Positions 1,359-60,870 of a stretch of DNA of 64,000 nucleotides are shown piece by piece. How positions within the stretch are numbered: position 1 is the first letter of the stretch; every line of letters starts with the position of its first letter. This DNA comes from Prorocentrum cordatum (Eukaryota > Sar > Dinophyceae > Prorocentrales > Prorocentraceae). The DNA lies in assembly GCA_963575745.1 (NCBI GenBank), contig CAUYUJ010014200.1:113501-177500 (forward strand), read 5' to 3'. The position numbers and the translations under genes are program-made. The notes under the pieces were generated by a model. It ran no database searches and was not told where the DNA came from. It saw only the letters and a program-made list of their open reading frames with translations.

Positions 1359-3517
1359 ATGATGATGCAGAATGTGACAGTGGATTCTTCCTCTCACGGG
1401 CCGCTGGCTGAGTTGCTGGAGGCCGAGCAACCGCCCTTGGGGCCGAGGCCAGCGGCGATCTGCTGCCAGGAACACCACTTGATCGGCGCCAAGTTGGGCT
1501 CGTTTCAGGCTCGGCTTACCTCCGCTGGGTATCACGGTGCGTGGACGGCGGCGGCGGCCACCGAGACCCGAGGGTCGAGAGGCGGGGTGGCAGCCTTGTG
1601 CCCCGCCAGCGTGCAGGTCACTTGCCCGCCGCTGTCATATTCGGGGGCGCTCGTGCCAGATAGGGCCGTTGCTGCCCGCATCCGCTCGAAGATGAAAGGC
1701 GGGTTCATTGCGATCGCCGCGTATTTGTGGGTGGACGAGCTTTTCGGACCTAACAATAAACGCTTGTTAACTGAGGTTGCCAGCTACATTCATCGGGTGC
1801 AGGCGCTTGGCTATGACTGGGTGCTGGGTGCGGATTTCAACATGCGGCCACCGCTGCTGAAGGCCCGGGCTGCTTCTAGTGGCGGCGTGGCAGTAGCCAC
1901 TACGACTCCGACGTGCACCCAGAGCGCTCCTGGCTCGGTGATCGAGTATTTTGTGATGAGTCCGAACATGGCTATACGCCCTTCGGAGCCTGAGGTGTGC
2001 ATGACCGCCAACTTGACACCTCACAGGCCCGTTTGTGTGCTGATGCAGGGGCCTGAGGCGGCCTTGTGGGCGCGCGCGGCAAGGCAACCGTGTCCCGTGC
2101 CAGCGCTGGCGAAGCCTGGCTGCGCGCGCTGCCCCAGGGACCGGGCGGGCTTCATCCAAGAGGTGGGCCGAGTTACTTCCGCCGACGAGCTCGCCACCCT
2201 CTGGGGCCGCATCGTGTGCGGCATCGAGCTGGAGCTGCTGGATAGGCGCGACATCATGGGGCCTAGTCGTAAGGACCACGAGGGTCGCGCTGGACCGCAT
2301 GAGACGGTCTGGAAGCAGGTGAAGACGGTGGTGCGCACCAAGTTGCCGATGGCCGACGTGGAGCACGCGGCGCGGGCGGCGGCGGCGCGCTTGGCGCGGC
2401 AGATCAGGCGCGCCAGCCAGGCCCTCTCGACGTGCGTGCCGGACCTGGGCGAGGAGGGCGAGGACCAGCAGCGCCGCCTGGCGCGGGTGGCAGGAATCCT
2501 GTTTGAGGCCCAGGCGTTCATGAGCAACGTCGGGAAGCAGCGCTCCACCTTGCAGGCGCTGGACATTCAGACGCGCAGGTTTTTTCTTTCAGGCCTTGCG
2601 GTCTTTGGCGGCCCAGCGACCGAGGATATGATTCAGCGAATCCTGGGCCAGGCCGGTTCCCACCAGGCCAGGTTCCTGATTTTGAAGGACGAGTCCTGGA
2701 GGGCCTGGGTTCGGAGCAGTTTTTTGGGCGGGGCTCGGGAAGCTCATAGGTTTTCCAAGGTTCGAGGTCTGCAGGAGACGATCGAGGCCACCGAGCGAGC
2801 GCAGCCGTTTCAATTGGCTGACGCGACTTGTTCGGACTGGGCCAAGATCTGGTCGACCCACGGATGTCGAGCGCCCGAGTTCCCGCCCGATTTCGACGAT
2901 TGGCCGTCGCTCCCCGAGATCACGATTGCCGATATGCGAGCGGCGATCGCCACATTCCCACCTCGAACGGCTGTCGGGTGCGTGAGCATCCACCCAAGGT
3001 CGCTTCGGTATTTGTCGGATGCCATCTTGTCGGCTATCGCCGCCCTCCTCATGAGCTGTGAGAGGATCGGGTGTTGGCTGACGGGACGGCCTGTTAGCCG
3101 TCTGGTCAGGTTGTCCAAGCCTGACGGCGGCCACCGCTTGATCGCCCTCCTCGGTTCTCTGCTGCGGCTTCTGGGCCGTTTGCGCAGGACCGAGACCGAG
3201 AACTGGGAGCTCGCAGCCAGGACTGCGTGCGATGAGGGGCGGGCGCAGGCGTTTTGGGGTACTGGGGGGGGGGGGGGGGGCTCTAGCGATTCTTCCTTGG
3301 ACTTGAATCTTGCAGCCGGGATTGCGAAGGCACGGTCTCACCATTGTGCGTCGCTGCTGCTGGACATGGTCAAGTGCTATGAGATGATTAAGCTTCCCGT
3401 TTTGTTTCAGGTTTTTCGCCGGGTTCATTTCCCCTTCCGTCTGGGGTGGATGCTTATCCAGAGCCACATGGCCCCTAGGCGGGTCGACGCTTTCGGGCCC
3501 CCTCCGAGGCCGATGTT
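1359..3517 (+). pseudogene. LINE ORF2, part 1: EEP endonuclease and N-terminal reverse transcriptase
   Basis: The reading frame is open across both domains. EEP landmarks: QEHHL (metal-binding Glu), GADFN near 1829-1843 (Asp-x-Asn), IEYFV near 1941 (usually Ile-Asp-Tyr), and TPHRPV near 2021 (usually Ser-Asp-His). The last two deviate, so endonuclease activity is doubtful. The RT begins near 2820 with LSKPDGGHRLI near 3112 (fingers) and LLLDMVKCYEMI near 3355 (motif A with catalytic Asp). A run of 17 G at about 3264-3280 lies inside the RT and adds glycines between motifs. The first ATG after ORF1 in this frame is at 1359. The frame is lost between motifs A and B. Confidence 0.8.
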
Positions 3518-4213
3518 AGTTTTCAGGGCATGCTGGCGGGCTGCTCGGCAGCGTCAGCGGTGATGTTGGCGGTTCTGCTGCAACCTGTCCAATCGGTCAT
3601 CACGCGGCTCCCTTCTGTGCGGGTTCGCGCCCTCATGGACGATGTGTCCTTGCAGTGGGACGGACCCGACAAAACCGAAGCGAATGTGGTTCTAGCGGCG
3701 GCTCGTGAGTTGTGCCGTGAGGTAGCCCCTATCGGCCTCCTTCTGCAGCCTAACAAGTCGGGGTTTGTTGCACCGAGTGTGGCCGCTGAGAAGAACATCA
3801 CCTCGGCTGGCCGCTTGATGGGTTTCAAGCATCAGAAGCATATGCGGAAGCTAGGCCATGACTTGTATGGACGCCGCGTCGTTCGAGTCATGGAGGCACG
3901 TAGGAGACGGCAGCTCGGCAAGCGTCGGCAGAGGCTCGCTGCCCTGAGGAGATCGGCGGGGGGGGGGCGGGCCCCGGGGTTGTGGAGGACGGGATTGATA
4001 CCGAGCGGCAGTCACGGTGCCGCTGTGTCAGGCGTCACTGATGCCACTCTTCTGTCGCTCCGTTCGCTCGCAGCGTCTCTCCTCGGGGCTAAGAGACGTT
4101 GTCATGTGACTCCGAACTTGTGCACGCACCGTGACAAGTTTTACGGCCCTGTGTTTGACGCCACAGTCCACTGTACATCGATATTGTTGCTGGGTGTGGG
4201 ACGGCCGCGCTAA
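3506..4213 (+). pseudogene. LINE ORF2, part 2: reverse transcriptase motifs B and C
   Basis: The RT continues in another frame. SFQGMLAGCSAASAVM near 3518 is motif B (Gln-Gly ... Gly), and RALMDDVSLQW near 3627 is motif C, with MDD where many families have YxDD. Thumb-like sequence follows and ends at a TAA at 4211-4213. The frameshift separating this from motif A lies between about 3475 and 3520. The rest of the protein resumes in a third frame shortly after the stop. Confidence 0.75.
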
Positions 4214-4221
4214 ATTTTCAG

Positions 4222-5880
4222 ACATGCGTTGTGTGTGTGTGGGAGCAGGCATCAACAGCTCTATCGGCTGCCCCGCACTGGTCTGGAGTTAGAGGGCCAG
4301 TTGGAGCTGTCATGCTCTCACTGAAGCGGGTTGGATGGGAACTCGCGGGGCCCCGCCACATTAGGACGGATCAGACTGTTGTTCTTTCTTCGCTGCGCAC
4401 GTCTCCCTCAGATGTGCGTTGCTTGCTGCGTGAAGGAATCAGCCGAGCCCAGGGGATCCAGCTTGCGTCGAGTCCCCCCGAGGCCCACGGGCACGAGGTC
4501 GTTTGGGTCAGGGCTCTCAGGATGGGGTTCCAGAGACTCCAAGGAGCCCGTAGGGCGTGTCTCAGGGCCCTCTGGTCAGGGGCTATGTGGCCTCCAGCTC
4601 GCAAGTTTCAGCACGGCTACGCGTCTAGCAAAAAGTGTGACTTCTGCGATCACTCGCAGGGGACTTTCGGCCATCAGTTCTAAGAGTGCGAAGGGCTGTG
4701 GGCGGCGAGTGACGACCCAGATGAGAGCTCTGCAATGCCAGACTCGTGCTTTGAGCATAGGAAGTGGCTAAAAGAGCAAGCGTATGGGATTCCCCCCGAC
4801 TTCGACACTCCTGAGCTGGTTTACGGTTTTCCCTCCCTCCCTGTCGCGATCCCTGCTGTCGCTGATCAGACGCAGGTTTTTTCCGGGGGTGCCGCGTCTG
4901 CACCCAGGGGCTTTCGTGTGTACACAGACGGGAGTGGCCTGGCGTCGGGAACCCCAGAGGCCACTCGATGTGGCTGGTCGGTCGTGGCCCGTTCTCCTGG
5001 GGGATGGCCTGTGAAGGCCGAGTTTGGGGCCCTCGCGGGGCCTGCGCAGACGGTCCCGAGGGCCGAACGCCAGGCTATCCTCCATGCTTTAAAGGTTGGG
5101 CCATGGGGCCTTGAAGTTGTATCGGACCATTTGTCGGCGGTCAAGGAGGGGAACTCTTGGGGCCCCAGACTGGCTGCTGGCGGAGGCGCACATGCCTCGG
5201 TTTGGAGGCGAGTTTTTGAATTATATCGTGGCAGGTCTGGGCGACCAGAGTTCCGCTGGACCCCGGCCCATCAGCATTTGCACGCGGCCCTGGAGGGCCA
5301 GGCGTTCCCCTGGGATGTCGTTGGTCGTAGTGTCGTCGATTGCATTGGGAACGCCTGGGCCGACTTCTTTGCGCGGCTAGGTGCGAGTGAACACCAGCTA
5401 CCCGAGCTGGTCACTTCGCTGCTGCGTGAGGACCTCAAGGATTGTTACGAGACGCTGGATTTCCTTTCGCGGGCTGCGCAGCACGCTGCTGCATCAGCCC
5501 CTGACCTACCCGCGCCCGTGCGTGTGAGAGGGGACGTCATCCCCAAACTTGGTTTGCTTTCTCACAATTTGGAGGCGGTGGATGGGGGTCCTGGAGCGGC
5601 GAGGTGCACGTGGTGCCACTGCTCGGCGCGGACTGCCTTGAGCAAGAAGAAGCTCGAGCAGCCTGGCGCGAGATGCACCCGGTCCGCCCTCCACCTCTTT
5701 CTCTCTGCAGTGCGGCGTGGAGGCGTCCCTCCCAGGGCGCGATGCGCCGCTGTCCAGATTGTCAACGATGCCCTCAGGACGCTGGGGCTCGAGGCCTCCG
5801 CTGAGGCCCCGATGGGGCCGCCAGAGACCTTCGTGTTTGAGGGCCGTGCACGTTGTGCAGGCCGCTGGCCGCTACCTTTT
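4222..5880 (+). pseudogene. LINE ORF2, part 3: zinc motif and RNase H domain
   Basis: CDFCDHSQGTFGHQF near 4636 is the Cys/His motif that follows the RT in this family. It is cut by an in-frame TAA at 4681-4683, and the same frame continues with ECEGLW, as in the related WECPFG of the 52-kb element. The RNase H domain shows VYTDGSG near 4918 (first Asp), RAERQAI near 5060 (Glu), VSDHLSAV near 5120 (second Asp) and WTPAHQ ... GNAWADFFA near 5263-5370 (His and last Asp). All expected catalytic positions are present. The frame slips again near 5840-5880. Confidence 0.8.
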
Positions 5881-20946: not shown

Positions 20947-21132
20947 GTAGATGGGGTCGGAGGGTCGCGCCGCGTCGGCGCTGCATTGGCGAGGCGGCTC
21001 GTTTTGTGGAGCCCGAGGTGCTCCACGCCGACGTCGCCGATGCATCACCCACGTCGACGATGCATCGCCGGTGCATCGCCGATGCATCGCCGATGTATCG
21101 GCGATGCGGCGCGATCCTCCGACCCCATCTGC
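20947..21132. mobile_element. MITE family 3, copy 2
   Basis: Ends GTAGATGGGGTCGGAGGGTC and GATCCTCCGACCCCATCTGC, interior GCATCGCCGATGCATCGCCG units. 21133-21640 beyond it holds a repeat-F-like piece and short AACATG-rich repeats (21505-21560), but no gene. Confidence 0.8.
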
Positions 21133-22309: not shown

Positions 22310-22430
22310 AGGAGTGGCCCTTCGCCTGAGTGCCCTCCTGGTGCGGGACCAAGGGGCTCGCTTCAGCGCTGGTCTACCCTCCCTCGCGGCGGCCGCGCCA
22401 TGCCGCGCACCAAAAGGTGCCACGCCTGCC
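22310..22430 (+). repeat. Dispersed repeat E, copy 3, split by the retrogene
   Basis: TGGCCCTTCGCCTGAGTGCC to CGCGCACCAAAAGGTGCC. The repeat stops at 22430 and resumes at 23798 (GCTTGCCCAGGGCCGTTCTT), which lines up with the uninterrupted copy at 41106-41276 (TCTTGCCCAGGATCACTCTT). The retrogene therefore landed inside it. Confidence 0.8.
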
Positions 22431-22452
22431 TCCGTGGCCATTCTGGCTCAAG
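22431..22452 (+). other. Relict spliced leader of the lectin retrogene
   Basis: TCCGTGGCCATTCTGGCTCA plus AG differs from the dinoflagellate SL at two of 22 positions (A to G, T to C). It abuts the target-site duplication, so it marks the 5' end of the copied mRNA, 78 bp before the ATG. Confidence 0.88.
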
Positions 22453-22530
22453 GGCTGACTTCGGCCTCGACTGCCACAGGCCAACGGGGCCTGACCCCAC
22501 CCCAGCCCCCAGGCCCGACCCGGCCCGCCA

Positions 22531-23370
22531 ATGTGCCGCGGCGGCTTGCTCCTGCTGGCCGCGGCTGCCCAGTGCGCTGCGGCCCCCGGCGCCGGCGACC
22601 TCGCCTCGGGAGGCGCGCCGCGCTCGGAGGCGGAGGCGGAGGGCCAGCAGGAGTGCGAGCACGCGGCCATGCGCGTGCAGGCCCTGCAGACGCGCTCGTC
22701 GCTGGCGGGCGCGCGCTCGCACGAGGACCCCGAGCCCGAGGCCGCGGACCCTGGCCCCAAGCCCCTGGGGCCTGCGGATCTGGACATGCGGGAGTTGACC
22801 GGGTACGCGGAGGGCAACCCGTACGTGCCCGGGCCCAACGTCTACCTCAAGGAGATGGTGGACCCGAGCAATTGTTGGGGCTATTGCCTGGACATCGCTG
22901 GGTCTCCACCCAAGCCCCTCTGCGAGTCGGTGCAGGGCCACTCCTGCAAGACCGAGGGCGAGGACACCCAGTTCACATATGATATCGAGAAGCATGAGAT
23001 TCGTTCGGTCAACTTCAACCACGAGTGCGACGCGCTGTATAGCGGGAACAACAGCGTCAGGGTTTGGAAGGCCGCCGTCGACAACACCAAGCAGGCTTGC
23101 CTCCAGGTCGACGGGGACTTTGTGGCGGGCGCCACCCTGAGCATGGGTAAGTGCGACGGCCAAGGGCAGCAGAAGTTCATCTATACGCCCAAGATGCAAT
23201 TTGCCGTCGGGGACGGCACCCTCTGCCTCGTCCTTGGCACCGAGAGGGAGGCCTTGCCGGACATGATGATGCGCTCCGCCGAGCTCCAGAGGTGCGATTC
23301 GTGGCCGTCCGAGCTGTCCACGTGGGAGGTCCTCTTGGAGGACCACGTGCCGCTCTCGTCGCTGCAGTGA
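22531..23370 (+). CDS. Secreted ricin-B-like (beta-trefoil) lectin-domain protein
   Basis: 279 aa from ATG 22531. Residues 1-18 form a signal peptide (LLLLAAAAQCAAA), and an Ala/Glu/Pro-rich linker runs to about 95. From about 100 to 260 there are three YCLDI/ACLQVD/LCLVLG blocks (residues 118-122, 189-194, 231-236) spaced about 40-70 apart with a QQKF motif at 213. That is the repeat pattern of a carbohydrate-binding ricin-type beta-trefoil. Nine Cys after residue 110 suggest disulphides and a secreted or vacuolar site. Only the lectin-type fold is present, with no catalytic toxin domain. The gene is intact inside a retrogene insertion. Expression is unproven, since the promoter must come from the landing site. 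The last about 45 codons are part of a 157-bp tandem duplication. Confidence 0.8.
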   Translation: MCRGGLLLLAAAAQCAAAPGAGDLASGGAPRSEAEAEGQQECEHAAMRVQALQTRSSLAGARSHEDPEPEAADPGPKPLGPADLDMRELTGYAEGNPYVPGPNVYLKEMVDPSNCWGYCLDIAGSPPKPLCESVQGHSCKTEGEDTQFTYDIEKHEIRSVNFNHECDALYSGNNSVRVWKAAVDNTKQACLQVDGDFVAGATLSMGKCDGQGQQKFIYTPKMQFAVGDGTLCLVLGTEREALPDMMMRSAELQRCDSWPSELSTWEVLLEDHVPLSSLQ

Positions 23371-23544
23371 GCGGCGACCGCTGCTCTTCCTTGGCACCGA
23401 GAGGGAGGCCTTGCCGGACATGGTGATGCGCTCCGCCGAGCTCCAGAGGTGCGATTCGTGGCCGTCCGAGCTGTCCACGTGGGAGGTCCTCTTGGAGGAC
23501 CACGTGCCGCTCTCGTCGCTGCAGTGAGCGGCGACCGCTGCTCT
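23231..23544 (+). repeat. 157-bp tandem duplication across the lectin stop codon
   Basis: TCCTTGGCACCGAGAGGGAG starts at 23231 and again at 23388, and both copies end GCTGCAGTGAGCGGCGACCG. Only one difference was noted (ATGATGATG against ATGGTGATG). The period is not a multiple of three and the first copy contains the TGA, so the second is untranslated. Confidence 0.95.
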
Positions 23545-23816
23545 TCCTTTTCCCCCCTGGCGGACTCCTGGGGGAATTCGTTTGTTTTTTTCCCACACGC
23601 ACTATTGTAGGCATGTCTCTCATGAGTTTTTGACAGTCTACGGTAGTCTGCGGTATTCATGGAGGCGGTCCTTCACGACGAGGTGTTGCCCTTCATGCAA
23701 TTTTTAGCTATGTTGGTGTATTGCCACTAGCACGTCACCGTAGTCTACTGGAACAGTGTAGTTCGCTCGACGCCATCGTGTCGACGGAGGAATAAAAAAA
23801 AGGTGCCACGCTTGCC

Positions 23817-54289: not shown

Positions 54290-54676
54290 CCTCCCCTCCT
54301 CCTCCTCCTCCGTCTCCTCCTCCTCCTCCTCCTCCTCCTCCTCCTCCTCCTCATCCTCCTCCTCATCCCCTCCTCCTCCTCCTCCTCCTCCTTCTCCTCC
54401 TCCTCCTCCTCTCCCTTCTTCTCCTCCTCCTCCTCCTCCTCCTCCTCCTCCTCCCTCCTCCTCCTCCTCCTCCCCTCCTCCTCCTCCCTCCCCCTCCTCC
54501 TCCTCCTCCTCCTCCTTTTCCCCCTCCTCCTTCCCCTCCTCCTCCTCCTGAGTCTCCCCCTCCTCCTCTTTCTCTCCCTCTTCCTCCTCCGCCTCCTCCT
54601 CCTCCGCCTCCTCCTCCTCCGCCTACTTCTCTCCCTCTTCCTCCCCTTCCTCCTCCACCTCCTCAGCCTCCTCCTC
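54290..54676. repeat. (CTC)n array
   Basis: CTC array adjoining the 3' end of LINE-3. Confidence 0.95.
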
Positions 54677-54903
54677 CATGTTGCCATGTTGCCAGCGATT
54701 AAGGGGAGACCTCGCGCTCCGAAGCCCCCTGGCAACTTAGCTACTGATGCGCTGTGGCGGGACTCCCACAGCTCTCGCGCTCTCTTCTTGGGAGCGAGCG
54801 GCGAGAGAGGACGGCCAGCTGTGTAACCCCTGTGGTAAAAATCCTTTCAAAAGACGTCTGCGGGCCCTCAGTTCTGTGCTGGTGGCGGGCTCCCAAACAC
54901 TCT

Positions 54904-55894
54904 TTAATTTGAAGGACTTCGAATTACTCCATCCACCACACCTCGAGCAAAATGCGATTCCCCGAAAACGTGCAGGTGGGGAATGTGGGTGTGGTGAAAT
55001 CCCTGAGCCTTACACTGGGTGCACGGCTTATCTAACCAGGGGGCCTTCTGCCCCGCGAACTGGTATCTGAAACAGATCCTGCACCTGAGCCCCTCTTTAC
55101 AATCCTCCAAGACGTGTCTGGCGTGTCCCCACTTACGGGTCGGCCTGGGTTGCTTGGGTCGAGAAAGGGAGGGAAGCTTAAAACCACCCCAGAATTTAAC
55201 CTGGATTGTGGCGAGACGCCTAGAGATGAGCTGCATCTCGGCGTCTTCAGCATCGATGCTGTCAAGCACTGTCTGAGGAAGCTGGACGAGGGTGGTGGCG
55301 CCATTGGCTACCTCATCCGCGAGCGAATTGGCCAAAAGGGCCCACGGCTGAATATCATACGTGTCCCAGCCCTCATAGCTGGGATGGGACTTGGTTCTGT
55401 GAAACTCAACGGGCCCATCATGGGCCTCGAAGGCGGTCCAAAAATAAATCCGTCAATCTGGATTGGAACGAGGCTTCCACCTAGGCCCCCTCAGCGCCCC
55501 CCCGATGTACATAGTTGGAATCCAATACCAGAGTAATCTCTCCCTGAACTTGGCGCAGGGCCTGCGTGGCGGCGTACAACTCGCCGCGGTTGACCATCTG
55601 CTTTCCTGGCAGGTTTCCTCGAAGAGTGCCTACAGGTTCGTAATCTGTGTCCAAGACTGCTACTCCCCAGCCCACGCGCCTTTTCCGAGGATCTTGATTG
55701 TGTGGGCCCTCACTGGCGTCGGACCCGACCAGGAATTTGCTTTTCACCTGCATCCTTTGGAGGACGAACGTGCCAGTGGCGCGGTGGACTGGGGGGGGTG
55801 GGTTGTCATCGGCGAGTCTTGCAGTGAACTCGGCTGGCTGGAGCGCGCGGCCCCACTTGATGGGGTATGACGGAAACTGCTCCACTGCCTTCAA
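54904..55894 (-). pseudogene. LINE-3 ORF2, RNase H and C-terminal zinc motif
   Basis: FLVGSDASEG (first Asp), NRGELYAATQAL (Glu), ITLVLDSNYV (second Asp), then in another frame MANSLADEVANGA (last Asp). CRICFRYQF ... CTQC closes the protein, with HTHIPHLHVFGESH after it and a stop at 54904. The His motif region 55336-55480 is lost to a frameshift. Confidence 0.75.
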
Positions 55895-56600
55895 AACAAG
55901 ATGGTTGGAATCAAGGATAGCCTCGTCGGTGCACTGCTGGAGCGCGGCACAGGTCCAGACCAGAAGCGGTGGAGGTCGTCCTCCTCTGGGGCGTTACACC
56001 TCGGGCACCTGGCTGAGACAGCTGGCTTGCACGAGTGCAGTCGGCCGCACGTCCAAACTGAACCCTTGCTAATAATGTGGAGGGCCTTGGCACATGCTGG
56101 CGCCTCCTCTCTTCGAAACTTTTGGCAAATAACCAGGACTGTAAACATCCACTCCTTCCTCAGCTCCTCCCCAAAGATAAAACTTCGAAGCCCGAGACCA
56201 GATAGTTCGGGAGATGTGTTGGGAGAACGCGTTCATGAACTCCTCCTGCCTCTTGAGGTCCCCAGTGGTGACTATGAAGCGCCTCTGATCTGGGAGGATC
56301 CATCCCCAGGGGCCCACAGGATAAACGTCAAAGTCCTGAAGGGTGGCGATGGTGGCCGAGAAGAGGGAAACAACCTTGCTCCACCTAGACTTGCCAGCGA
56401 GCCTTTCATTTGCCGGGGTCCATCGCCTGTTGATGGCGGTGTGCAGCACAGTGTCCTGGTTGACCATGTCGAACCAGGCGTATAAAATCTGCATCGGCAA
56501 ATAATGGGAAGGATCCTCCTGCTCTTGTCCTTTCGGCGATAGGGCGAAGCCCGTGGAAGTACATCCATACTTGGGAACATATCCAAGCCCACGAACTAGA
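55895..56600 (-). pseudogene. LINE-3 ORF2, thumb region and zinc motif
   Basis: LPMQILYAWFDMVNQDTVLH and INRRWTPANERLAGKSRWSK belong to the RT thumb region. CPRCNAPEEDDLHRFW near 56000 is the zf-RVT motif, with the last Cys replaced (WSGP). Confidence 0.7.
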
Positions 56601-58430
56601 CGCCCCCGAACGTGTTTCAACTGCGTAGCGCATATACCTTGGCCCTGGTGGCCCCAGAAGAGTTGCGGTTTGGCCCCAGTTGAGACCAGCCTCCGGGCCC
56701 TCTTGATATTTCTGGACAGGTTCTGGATCGATGCGAGCCTCTTGAGCCCCTTGCCGGACCTGGCGATCCTGGTAGCAATCCTGCGTCTCTCCCCAAGATA
56801 GTGTCCATCCCCAGATCCCGCCCAAGTCCTTCTTGCTTGAAGGCCCACCCGTGAGAGCCCAGAGTGGTACAGATGCACTGACTGACGGACTTGGCCGAGC
56901 TGACGATGCAGGGCTTGGGGGAGAGCCGACAACCTCTGGATTGTAGGGCTTCTCCTAGGTATATGATGGCCTGTGGGACGTCCACTTCGAGCATCTTGTG
57001 GAGTCCCCAGGCTCTGAGTCGTAGGTCGTCCACCCACGTTCGAAATTTCAAATGAGGGAAGCGCCTGTGCATCTCGTCGAGTATATCGCACAGGAAGGCG
57101 CGGGCGAACGAGGTAGACTGTGAACGCCCCTGCAGCATACTCTCTGTCGGGCAGATGGCGCTGGAGCAGCCAAGCGGCCCGCGGCCGTGAGCACCCGCGC
57201 GGCCGTGTGAACCATCATGCCGAGAACGAGCGGAATTGTTGGATATTCTAACTTGACCGCCATACTGCATACAGATTCGGTGCAAGCCGCATCGAAGAAT
57301 TTCTCGATGTCCAACAGCGCCTCTGAAATAAGAAATCCTAGACTGGTGGCCAGCTCGGTCGTCACTTCATTCAAATGCGCTGCCCTCAAACATGAGGAGC
57401 CTCGGATAGCCTCATCCCAAAAGCCAGCTTTTTTGGAGTTCCAGGCGGTGATAGAGGGTCTTTCCAACTGGATCAGGATGCGGTAAAAACTGCACGTGTG
57501 GGCGAAGGGTCGATCCGATTCAATACTATTTGGGATGAGGCGAACCATGTTCATGAGCACCTGCACTGGAAACTTAAACGTGGTGCGGACCTGATTGAGC
57601 AGGTCGGTGAAGACCTGGCGGCCTTCTGTCGGAAGGAGGTCGCACCCCCTCGGGTTCCACAGGTCGGCACCTCCTGCTGAGTTTGTGCTATATATGCGAC
57701 AAACTGAAATACTTCTTCGGGCTCCCACTGGAGTTCCTCCAAGACTTGCCTCCGAGCTTGGGCAATAAGGGGAACGGGCCATTGAGCCTCTTGTGGCCTG
57801 CTCGGGGATCCCAGGGGTGCCCAGTATTTCTCCCAATCGGTAAGCTTGTGCTGCATGAGGAGGATCGGGTCATCTGGGATGATCTGATGGGAGCAGGAGG
57901 ATATTTTGATGGTGTCCAGCTCCTCTGGGGGTGGGGGTTGGGCCTTGGTGGTGGCGTGCGAAATGTTCGCCCCTTTCTTTAAGTCCTCCTCAACCCATTC
58001 CTGGAGTTCTTTGGATGCTATCCGATTTTCCAATCGTTGGTAATGCTGGTGTATCCCATCAAGAAACTTCTGAAACTCGATCCCAGTCTGAGTCCCAAAG
58101 TTCCCGAAGAAAACCTCTGGATCCTGAATGTGGCCTGCGACATACTCCCCCAGAGTGTCCCTGTTGTCCTGGGTGACGTAATCTGGGTAGGTGATGGCTG
58201 CATGGATCCTGTGTAAAAGATGCTGGATGGCTCATACTTGCTGTGGAGCTTGGGCGCGCCGCCGCAGCGCGCCCCGATCGCGTGCACGGGCAGGCAGAAC
58301 GTTCCACTTGCTAGCCATGCTGGTCTCCAACCTTTCTGGCGGCTGCGGCGGGAGGAGTGCTTGGCGTTGAAATCTGACACATTGGCCCCTGCTCGGGCGA
58401 CATGGGTATCCAACCCTGTTGTGGTGCATA
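56400..58430 (-). pseudogene. LINE-3 ORF2, reverse transcriptase
   Basis: N-terminal linker with KLTDWEKYWAPLG (about 57830), motif A ALLDIEKFFDAAC (about 57318), motif B SMLQGRSQSTSFARAFLCDI (about 57120), motif C RTWVDDLRLRAWG (about 57020). The catalytic Asp pair is present as VDD. Motif A and motifs B/C lie in different frames. The 58.0-58.4 kb part is too scrambled to assign. Confidence 0.75.
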
Positions 58431-58554
58431 TGAAGTTCCAGAGCCCGGCTGAGTGTAGCGTACTGAAGGGTTAATTCTGGGCTAGCGTAGGCCTGGCAGT
58501 AGGGGTATGTCGGTACCAGGTGGGGCTCTGATACCTCCTCCTCGGCCTTCTCAT

Positions 58555-59494
58555 AATACTACTCCCATGGCATGTGGGCCCCCTGGTAGTTGGCGGGGAG
58601 GGGGCTCGCACGACTGCATGCCAATATCTCCTTCTGAGCGATATCTCGAGTAACAACTCCTGCAACTCCTAAGTGTGGCTTCCAAGGTCCCTCCAAGGTG
58701 GCCCCCAGCTTGGTCGAGATGCCTAGCCTCTGATCGACGACACAGTAATCTATCATACGATATCCGTTCGAACAGGTCCAGGACGTGTTCGACGGCGTGA
58801 TGATTTTCCCGTTTACCCAATAAAGCCATTTCACGGGATGGTTGAGCTCGGAAAGGGGGTACGTTATAATCGCTTGCAATGATGTAGGGCATCCTACAGG
58901 TCCTGATGTGGATGACGATTTCATGGATGATGTCCCCATTGGCCTGATGCATGCCCACCCCAGAACGCAAAAAAACGCCAATCATGAGGAAACATATCTT
59001 ATCTAGGTTGATGACTACGCTCGTCCAGCGAGTCCCTGAGACTAGAGGTTCGGGGTGGCCCTGGGCACCCATGATACGCGCGTGGGAGGAAAGATGGGAC
59101 CTGACACCCAACAGGATTCCCGTTTGGCCCCCCTCGGCTGTGCTGATGGCTGGACAAACGTAGGTCGTCCAACCCTTCTTCTTAAACTGCTTCCGAACGG
59201 GCCCATGCTTGCTCAGAGTGAGGCGCGTCTCTGTCAAAATGCAAACATCCGCCAAGAAGCGCGAGTCTAGGATATATGTGTTTCCCGTGTATTCCACAGG
59301 GTAATGTTGGCGAAATAGAACGTGAGATCCCCAGTGGCTCCCGTTCGAGAGCCCTTGGCCTGGGAGAAAGTGGGGTACCCGAACATCATGGCGAGGCTCG
59401 GGTCGTATTTCATGGCCGTCGTGGTGGCGTTAGTCACGAAAAGCCCCGTCAGCACGATCATCAACGTGAGCACGGCTGCGACCACCATCTTCAT
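58555..59494 (-). pseudogene. LINE-3 ORF2, EEP endonuclease
   Basis: ATG 59494 opens MKMVVAAVLTLMIVLTGLFV, an unexpected hydrophobic segment, then LTFYFANITLWN. The EEP continues with CILTETRL (Glu), GQTGILLGVRSHL and IIASDYNVPP (Asp-x-Asn). After another shift come MIDYCVVDQRLG (Ile-Asp-Tyr) and KPHLGV. At least two frameshifts. Confidence 0.75.
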
Positions 59495-60600
59495 GCACGG
59501 CAGTCACCGCCGCCGCTGGGCTGCGGCTGCGGTCCCCAGGGTGGGGTTCCTCCTCGGCTGTGGCGGCCGCAGCACTCCCTGCCCCGCGGCGCGGGCTGGG
59601 GCCCCGTGGGGGCAGCCTCGGCGGGGGCCCCGCGGGCGCCGCCTGGGCTGGCGCGGGTGGCGGCGCCGCCTTGCCGCCGCCCATGGCCGCTGCTGGCGCC
59701 GCCGCGGGCCCACGGGCCGCGGGCGGTGCGCCGCTGGCGGCCGCGGCGGCAGCCCTGGCGGCCCCCTGCGGCCCGATGGGGGCTGCGGCCGCCTTGGGCA
59801 CCTGCTGACCGTACTTGCTGCGATCTGCGGGTGCTGCCCCAAGGAGGCCTGCAGGGCCTGCTGGTCGTGCGGCGTGAGGGACTCGTCCTCGATGACGATG
59901 CACTTGGCGCCATCGGGGTTGACAAGCTCCGCCCATTGTTGTGACTTCTTCGCCGCCTCCTGTTTGGCGGCCTGCCCCTGTGAGACTGCCACGTCCAGGT
60001 TCGCCTCGGCCTGGGTGAGCTGCTCCTTGAGCTGGTCCACCTTGTGTTGGCACTCCTTCTTGTACGTAGTGGCTCGCTGCAAGGCCCTCTTGGCCAAGCC
60101 GACGTCGTGGGACAAGGCGGGGACGGCATCAGGCTTTGCTTCGCGCTCTGGCGAGGCGTCCGCTGACAGGTGCTGCTCCTTGAACTTCGCAAGCTGCGGA
60201 GGTCCGAGCAGTCCTTGGAGCGCCCCCAGGATCTTCTGCAGCTGGGGGTCCCCTGGTGTCGATGCGCCACTGTCGACACCTTCGCCTGGCTCGTCTCCCT
60301 GAAGGAGGTGGTTGCCGCACCTGCACAGCGGGTCCTTCCTCGCGCGCGCCAACCACTTCCACTTGTTGCAAACGTCGCACACCACGTACTGTTTGTTAGC
60401 TGCATCACGTCCTCCTTCTGCTCCCTTCCCGTGTCCGTTGTTCCCCGCCCAGCTGTTCCAGCGCTTGCCCCAGGCTCCATCCTGGCGGCTCTCATTGCGG
60501 CGCCTGAGCCTGAGCCTGTGAAGGGGCCCGGGTCGACTGGCAGGCTGATGCCAGACAAGCTGGAATGGCCATCGCTGTTGGCCGCGCTCGAGCGAGGTTG
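59430..60600 (-). pseudogene. LINE-3 ORF1: zinc motif, coiled coil, Ala/Pro tail
   Basis: YVVCDVCNKWKWLARARKDP then LCRCGNHL forms a Cys motif like LINE-1 ORF1. A coiled coil follows (KKECQHKVDQLKEQLTQAEA ... SQGQAAKQEAAKK). After a frameshift near 59810 the tail YGQQVPKAAAAPIGPQGAAR runs to a stop at 59430. No ATG opens the zinc frame after the SL, so another small frameshift near the start is likely. Confidence 0.7.
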
Positions 60601-60620
60601 GGAAGTTCAGGAGCAGGCCC

Positions 60621-60640
60621 CTTGAGCCAAAATGGCTACG
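60621..60640 (-). other. Spliced leader sequence at the 5' end of LINE-3
   Basis: The reverse complement is CGTAGCCATTTTGGCTCAAG, an exact match to 20 nt of the 22-nt dinoflagellate SL. Upstream of it is GGA microsatellite, downstream is element sequence. The SL is therefore at the insertion boundary. Confidence 0.9.
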
Positions 60641-60644
60641 TCTC

Positions 60645-60870
60645 CTCCGTCTCCTCCTCCTCCGTCTCCTCCTCCTCCTCGTCCTCCTCCTCTTCCTCCT
60701 TGTCATCCTCCTCCTCTCCCTCTTCCTGCTCCTGATCCTCCTCCTCCTCCTCCTCCTCCTCCTCCTCCCTGTTTCCTCCTCCTCCTCCTCCTCCTCCTCC
60801 TCCTTCTCCTCCTCCTCCTCCTCCTCCCCCTCCTCCTCCTCCTCCTCCTCCTCCTCCTCCTCCTCCGTCT
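60645..60870. repeat. (CTC)n array
   Basis: CTC array upstream of LINE-3. 60871-61360 beyond it is unassigned. Confidence 0.95.

Follow-up and report, generated by a model that had tools for sequence, protein, structure and literature searches.

Introduction

Dinoflagellate retrogenes that carry a relict of the dinoflagellate spliced leader (DinoSL) were reportedly described by Slamovits and Keeling in 2008. In two later papers a spliced-leader (SL) relict 5′ of an intact coding sequence (CDS) serves as the tag of a retroposed trans-spliced mRNA, and the same arrangement is seen at the Prorocentrum cordatum locus described here (Song et al., 2018, PMC6050394; Haro et al., 2025, PMC12014239). 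In the available text of these papers the retrogenes are known by the relict and the machinery is left open, whereas the junctions of the present locus are resolved, with a target-site duplication (TSD), a run of A, a related empty site and a near-identical copy that has the acceptor. According to the accessible part of the 2018 review, the share of retrogenes among genes lies between about a fifth and a quarter, both for two Symbiodinium genomes and for EST and transcript surveys; the reverse transcriptase that makes them in dinoflagellates is there called unknown, and LTR elements are favoured (PMC6050394). The 2025 paper, in its available sections, did not rule out retroviruses (PMC12014239).

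Three further systems are comparable, each as portrayed in the available portion of its source. Mammalian retrogenes and processed pseudogenes bear an L1-type signature, a TSD with a poly(A) end and L1-type endonuclease sites, and resemble the present locus in the first two respects and perhaps in the third (PMC3747384). They differ in that here a 5′ trans-spliced leader marks the copy as full length and the A-run is short. Non-retroviral RNA-virus insertions in Symbiodinium also carry an SL relict, and LINE-mediated retroposition has been proposed for them; the link to LINEs is by proximity, and neither a TSD nor an empty site appears in the accessible text (PMC10235124). Target-specific non-LTR retrotransposons of repeats and microsatellites share repeated insertion targets with the SL-tagged LINEs described below, but use a restriction-like endonuclease, whereas the P. 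cordatum elements match the endonuclease/exonuclease/phosphatase family and bear a 5′ spliced leader (PMC4640811). Judged by titles and the opening lines of abstracts, nothing was found in the open literature on dinoflagellate retrogenes together with target-primed reverse transcription, and the open literature searched likewise gave nothing on retroposed genes with direct repeats and a spliced leader. A match on dinoflagellate target-site duplication and spliced leader has Amoebophrya as its subject, as far as its available text goes.

Sequence analysis

The window is the whole 64 kb stretch of DNA that was analysed (C13351:113501–177500), and positions without a contig refer to it. Genome searches were performed on the P. 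cordatum assembly of 4.13 Gb. Related empty sites were searched for using both flanks joined with one copy of the repeat as the query, and 40 of the 307 candidates were scored.

For the survey of genomic leaders, 100 SL places were taken from the first contigs, not as a random sample, and 70 of them were examined. An SL was called array-adjoining if the 30 nt preceding it were at least 80% in-phase (TCC)n or (GGA)n. Twelve of the 34 loci below this threshold were screened for TSDs over about 3.5–6 kb downstream. As a control, 156 mismatched locus pairs were scored; the scores reached 11, except for values of 25 and 28, which we take to arise from repeats.

The lectin locus

The preliminary description had read positions 22412–23816 as a retroposed mRNA copy combining an SL, an ORF, an A-run and a TSD. 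All of these marks are present in the sequence (Table 1), including the 19 bp direct repeats and the relict that begins at the base next to the left repeat. The A-run had been placed immediately before the right repeat; the run is there, but the right repeat starts inside it, with an overlap of 4 A.

Table 1. Features of the lectin locus and of the SL-tagged element in the window.
Feature	Position	Strand	Remarks
Left target-site duplication, 19 bp	22412..22430	+	18/19 identical to 23798–23816
Dinoflagellate spliced-leader relict	22431..22452	+	Full 22 nt, 2 changes
5′ UTR of source mRNA	22453..22530	+	76/78 nt identical to C20329 copy
ORF, 279 aa, ricin-type beta-trefoil lectin	22531..23370	+	Ricin_B_lectin match
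157 bp tandem duplication over stop codon	23227..23549	+	Single copy in C20329 and C14094
Insert 3′ end without counterpart in C20329 copy	23740..23793	+	No other match in genome search
A-run, probable poly(A) tail remnant	23794..23801	+	Last 4 A common to right repeat
Right target-site duplication	23798..23816	+	Pairs with 22412–22430, one mismatch
SL-tagged LINE-like element, about 5.96 kb	54677..60641	−	In GGA array, without A-tail

The 19-mer of the TSD occurs in two copies only in the whole window when up to three mismatches are allowed. In shuffled sequence 0.01 such 19 bp repeats and 0 SL relicts are expected. Among 3000 19-mers picked at random from the window, however, 158 recur 60–4000 bases downstream with at most one mismatch; a crude test assigned 95 of these to local tandem repeats. 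The shuffle test thus overstates the significance of the TSD because the P. cordatum genome is repetitive, and the case stands above chance because the marks combine: the SL is flush with the left repeat, and the A-run holds the start of the right one. The A-run is short (8 A, of which four belong also to the TSD), but is the only plus-strand run of at least 8 A in the 64 kb window, which holds no run of 8 T. If a variant SL RNA gave rise to the two changes in the relict, it is not a dominant one, since the double variant is found in 33 of 14,982 genomic matches to the SL pattern.

The lectin ORF is intact, as had been stated, and matches Ricin_B_lectin with an E value of 1.8e-10. The protein is putatively secreted, as judged by eye from its N-terminus. 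It has 14 database matches (P0002–P0015), of which P0002 is the gene model of the locus itself, and the best match carries a P. cordatum annotation; among solved structures no match was found at E values up to 1. The 408 aa gene model P0002 passes from copy 1 of the 157 bp duplication into copy 2 as if across an intron, and includes further exons 3′ of the right repeat. The duplication is missing from both lectin copies compared (C20329 and C14094) and had gone unmentioned in the preliminary description.

The suggestion that selection may be keeping the ORF was not supported. Relative to the C20329 copy there are five nonsynonymous differences and one synonymous difference in the ORF, and two differences in the 78 nt 5′ UTR. 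Taking C14094 as the outgroup, about three nonsynonymous and one synonymous substitutions were assigned by eye to the branch of the retrocopy. The frame stays open in 85% of simulations with four random substitutions (substitutions only, without indels), so that an intact ORF is no sign of selection.

Copies of the lectin gene

A genome search with the insert as the query identified a near-identical copy at C20329:45078–46205, with 99% identity over query positions 21–965 and 92% over 942–1309, the 3′ end. The match opens at query position 21, precisely where the final AG of the SL lies. Before this AG the C20329 contig contains unrelated DNA, and after it the same 5′ UTR as the window locus; this is the layout expected of a source gene whose mRNA is trans-spliced. 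At the window locus the SL relict is joined where C20329 has the AG, and the same is true of the second locus, L095, with respect to its parent C13789 (see below). This AG was probably used as the trans-splice acceptor.

A multi-exon parental gene, which the preliminary description had proposed to look for, was not what the nearest copy turned out to be: C20329 is without an intron over the 1.1 kb aligned, and therefore the window locus itself gives no sign of intron loss. The C20329 copy has a single copy of the 157 bp unit and a 1 nt frameshift, either genuine or an artefact of assembly, with which the truncation of the annotated protein P0003 agrees. Homology to C20329 stops at 23739, and nothing corresponding to the final 58 nt of the insert was found in that copy, in the 1.2 kb beyond it or elsewhere in the assembly. 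Possible sources of these 58 nt are an altered parental 3′ end, an unassembled exon or another RNA.

Two other lectin copies, C14094 and C13040, have inserts within the CDS. In the C13040 paralogue (L102; C13040:363550–365050) there are two such inserts, one of them bracketed by direct repeats of about 11–15 bp (by eye) and resembling introner-type introns.

Related empty sites

Besides the locus itself, two sites were found in which the alignment runs through the left flank, one degenerate copy of the target and the right flank. C2853 is 76% identical over 162 query bases, with 31 nt to the left of the target copy and 112 to the right; C19829 is 74% identical over 146 query bases, with 110 nt to the left and 17 to the right. 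Both score higher against the joined flanks than against the occupied site (101 versus 91 bits for C2853 and 80 versus 64 bits for C19829). Among the 40 matches that were scored with the joined flanks as query, 36 are confined to the right of the junction; six of these were retrieved, and the alignments of five were inspected. Since C2853 and C19829 span the junction, the target is likely to be a member of a dispersed repeat, and on the evidence of these alignments the insert most likely broke such a member.

A second locus with a target-site duplication

In the TSD screen the window locus scores 16. Among the 12 non-array SL loci, one (L095) has a TSD in unique sequence, with a score of 14. 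Four others (L097, L040, L041 and L096) score 10–31, all in simple or tandem repeats, and nothing was found at the remaining seven (scores of 6–8). One unique-sequence case in twelve is a small number; further cases may be hidden because the insert extends past the stretch screened, because of age or because of different targets.

L095 is a WD40 gene with an exact 14 bp TSD at +1318, after CCAAAAAAC. Its parent (C13789) has four exons across 26.5 kb, and the introns are missing from L095, so that loss of the source introns is seen at this locus. Homology between the two extends from SL position 21, again in the leader's final AG, to position 1316 of 1319, and the tail of L095 departs from the parental sequence within the A-run, which comprises 6 A, four of them also in the parent.

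The insert of L041 contains another SL-like stretch at about +1623 (92% over 26 nt), by the same minisatellite; perhaps there were repeated insertions into one tandem repeat.

Genomic leaders and SL-tagged LINEs

The pattern CCGTRGCCATTYTGGCTCAAG occurs 14,982 times in the genome, compared with 0 occurrences of the reversed control. Of the 70 leaders examined, 36 adjoin (TCC/GGA)n arrays, 27 of them (TCC)n and nine (GGA)n, against a background of 2.1% at 21,000 positions drawn at random and of 3.8% within the window. In the TCC orientation the tracts may be mere pyrimidine tracts of splice acceptors, a reading against which stand the nine of 36 arrays that are GGA.

Some of the array-adjoining leaders are the 5′ ends of LINEs. 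At L034 the leader is flush with the array and is followed directly by the ATG of an intact 1864 aa ORF with endonuclease and reverse transcriptase (RT) domains by Pfam; the RT region matches solved structures of LINE-1 ORF2 and R2 proteins. L047 is a 91% copy of L034, and its leader too is flush with an array. Among the 20 long loci (L031–L050), an endonuclease or RT was found above the Pfam cut-offs in five (L034, L038, L040, L042 and L047) and below the cut-off in three (L039, L045 and L050), and neither was found in the other 12 within the subset of their ORFs that was scanned.

The SL-tagged element of the window, which runs from 60641 to 54677 on the minus strand, lies between GGA arrays at 60642–60866 and 54290–54677, with its leader flush against the array. 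It has coding matches to L042, with an endonuclease by Pfam, and to L039, with RT and endonuclease just under the Pfam cut-off; in its own six pieces Pfam finds neither domain directly. The 3′ ends inspected (L034, L047, L040 and the window element) have no A-run. It may thus be that these LINEs use one enzyme and the A-tailed retrogenes another.

A further LINE-like coding stretch lies at about 1641–4689 (+) in the window and matches the L039, L050 and L048 proteins.

Mechanism and alternatives

The locus is very probably a processed retrogene, made when a LINE-type enzyme copied a lectin mRNA by target-primed reverse transcription. The retroposition put forward in the preliminary description is supported by the C20329 match, which starts at the SL junction, by the related empty sites and by L095 with its intron-bearing parent, all of which, like the leader–acceptor junction, the repeats and the A-run, are observed directly. 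In the mechanism that we propose, a lectin gene (C20329 or a twin) would have supplied an mRNA that received the 22 nt leader by trans-splicing at the acceptor AG and was given a poly(A) tail. The LINE-type enzyme would have nicked the bottom strand of the dispersed repeat, presumably at 5′-TTTT/GG, and the T's freed by the nick would have annealed to the A-tail of the mRNA. Reverse transcription would then have run to the extreme 5′ end of the leader, and, once the second strand had been nicked 19 nt away, joining of the cDNA would have left AAAAGGTGCCACGC(C/T)TGCC at either side. We infer the class of the enzyme from the length of the TSD, the A-run and the full 5′ end. LINE copies made by target priming have TSDs of about 7–20 bp, a range that includes the 19 bp of the window locus and the 14 bp of L095, and TSDs of such lengths together with A-runs mark L1-type copies. 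A probable poly(A) remnant lies at the 3′ junction, as in LINE-processed copies, and at least one LINE with intact endonuclease and RT (L034) is present in the genome. L1-type endonucleases cut at TTTT/R; the putative nick site reads TTTT/GG at the window locus and CTT/CTT at L095, two sites only. Against this explanation are the unmatched 58 nt at the 3′ end of the insert and the shortness of the A-runs (8 A at the window locus and 6 A at L095, four of the latter being parental). Also against it are the intronless 1.1 kb of the nearest copy, the single unique-sequence TSD among the 12 non-array loci screened, and the predominance of flank matches confined to the right of the junction (36 of 40). 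No A-tailed LINE was identified, and the LINE ends seen carry no A-tail.

Integrases leave TSDs of 4–6 bp, far from the 19 and 14 bp seen here, and the A-run at the 3′ junction with the leader whole at the 5′ junction also argues against an LTR retrotransposon of the Ty1/copia type having packaged the mRNA, reverse-transcribed it and inserted it by its integrase. This route, argued from high Ty1/copia expression in the available text of the 2018 review (PMC6050394), is in our estimate very improbable. Still less credible is a gene duplication at the DNA level in which the SL-like motif and the flanking repeat are coincidental. Recurrence of 19-mers is frequent (158 of 3000) and the nearest copy is likewise intronless in the aligned part, both of which would suit it, but the homology to C20329 starts exactly where the acceptor AG underlies the SL and does not reach the flanks, related empty sites exist, and L095 repeats the pattern with its introns removed. 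DNA duplication was rejected on the position of the homology boundary at the acceptor AG.

Two other possibilities are compatible with LINE-type retroposition. As a variant of our preferred explanation, the SL-tagged LINEs that target microsatellites might themselves have mobilized mRNAs in trans, in which case the A-run would be incidental. The proportion of SLs that adjoin TCC/GGA arrays (36 of 70) and the frequency of SL-tagged LINEs among the loci read, some partly intact, favour this variant; we nevertheless consider it rather unlikely, as the window retrogene and L095 lie in non-array targets and have A-runs, and array-sited LINE ends were seen without one. A chimeric retrocopy, in which synthesis started on the A-tail of another RNA and, after about 58 nt, continued on the lectin mRNA as a new template, is unlikelier again. 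It would account for the last 58 nt, which differ from C20329 and match nothing else, but a search of the assembly gave no other source for them, and a changed or intron-split 3′ UTR of the source gene explains them equally well.

Two possible retroposition systems

The proposed target-primed copying of a lectin mRNA by an L1-like activity can be placed beside the array LINEs in a broader reading, to which we give an even chance as a whole: P. cordatum may have two retroposition systems, each writing SLs into the genome. The one would consist of SL-tagged LINEs of the endonuclease/exonuclease/phosphatase type that target simple repeats, including (TCC/GGA)n, use no A-tail and make copies that start at the leader. 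The other would be an A-tail-dependent, L1-like LINE activity that places ordinary trans-spliced mRNAs, among them those of the lectin and the WD40 gene, in unique DNA with duplications of 14–19 bp. Most of the approximately 15,000 near-perfect leaders would then be 5′ ends of LINEs and retrogenes and would record their jumps.

The window locus and L095 make the question of the retrogene machinery decidable, and the same test can be applied to the approximately 15,000 leaders in this single genome. The association of leaders with TCC/GGA arrays suggests that counts of SL relicts as retrogenes would include LINEs.

Leaders also occur in a tandem family: at L082–L084 (C39:19754–28261), three SLs with near-identical non-repeat flanks lie 3–5 kb apart.
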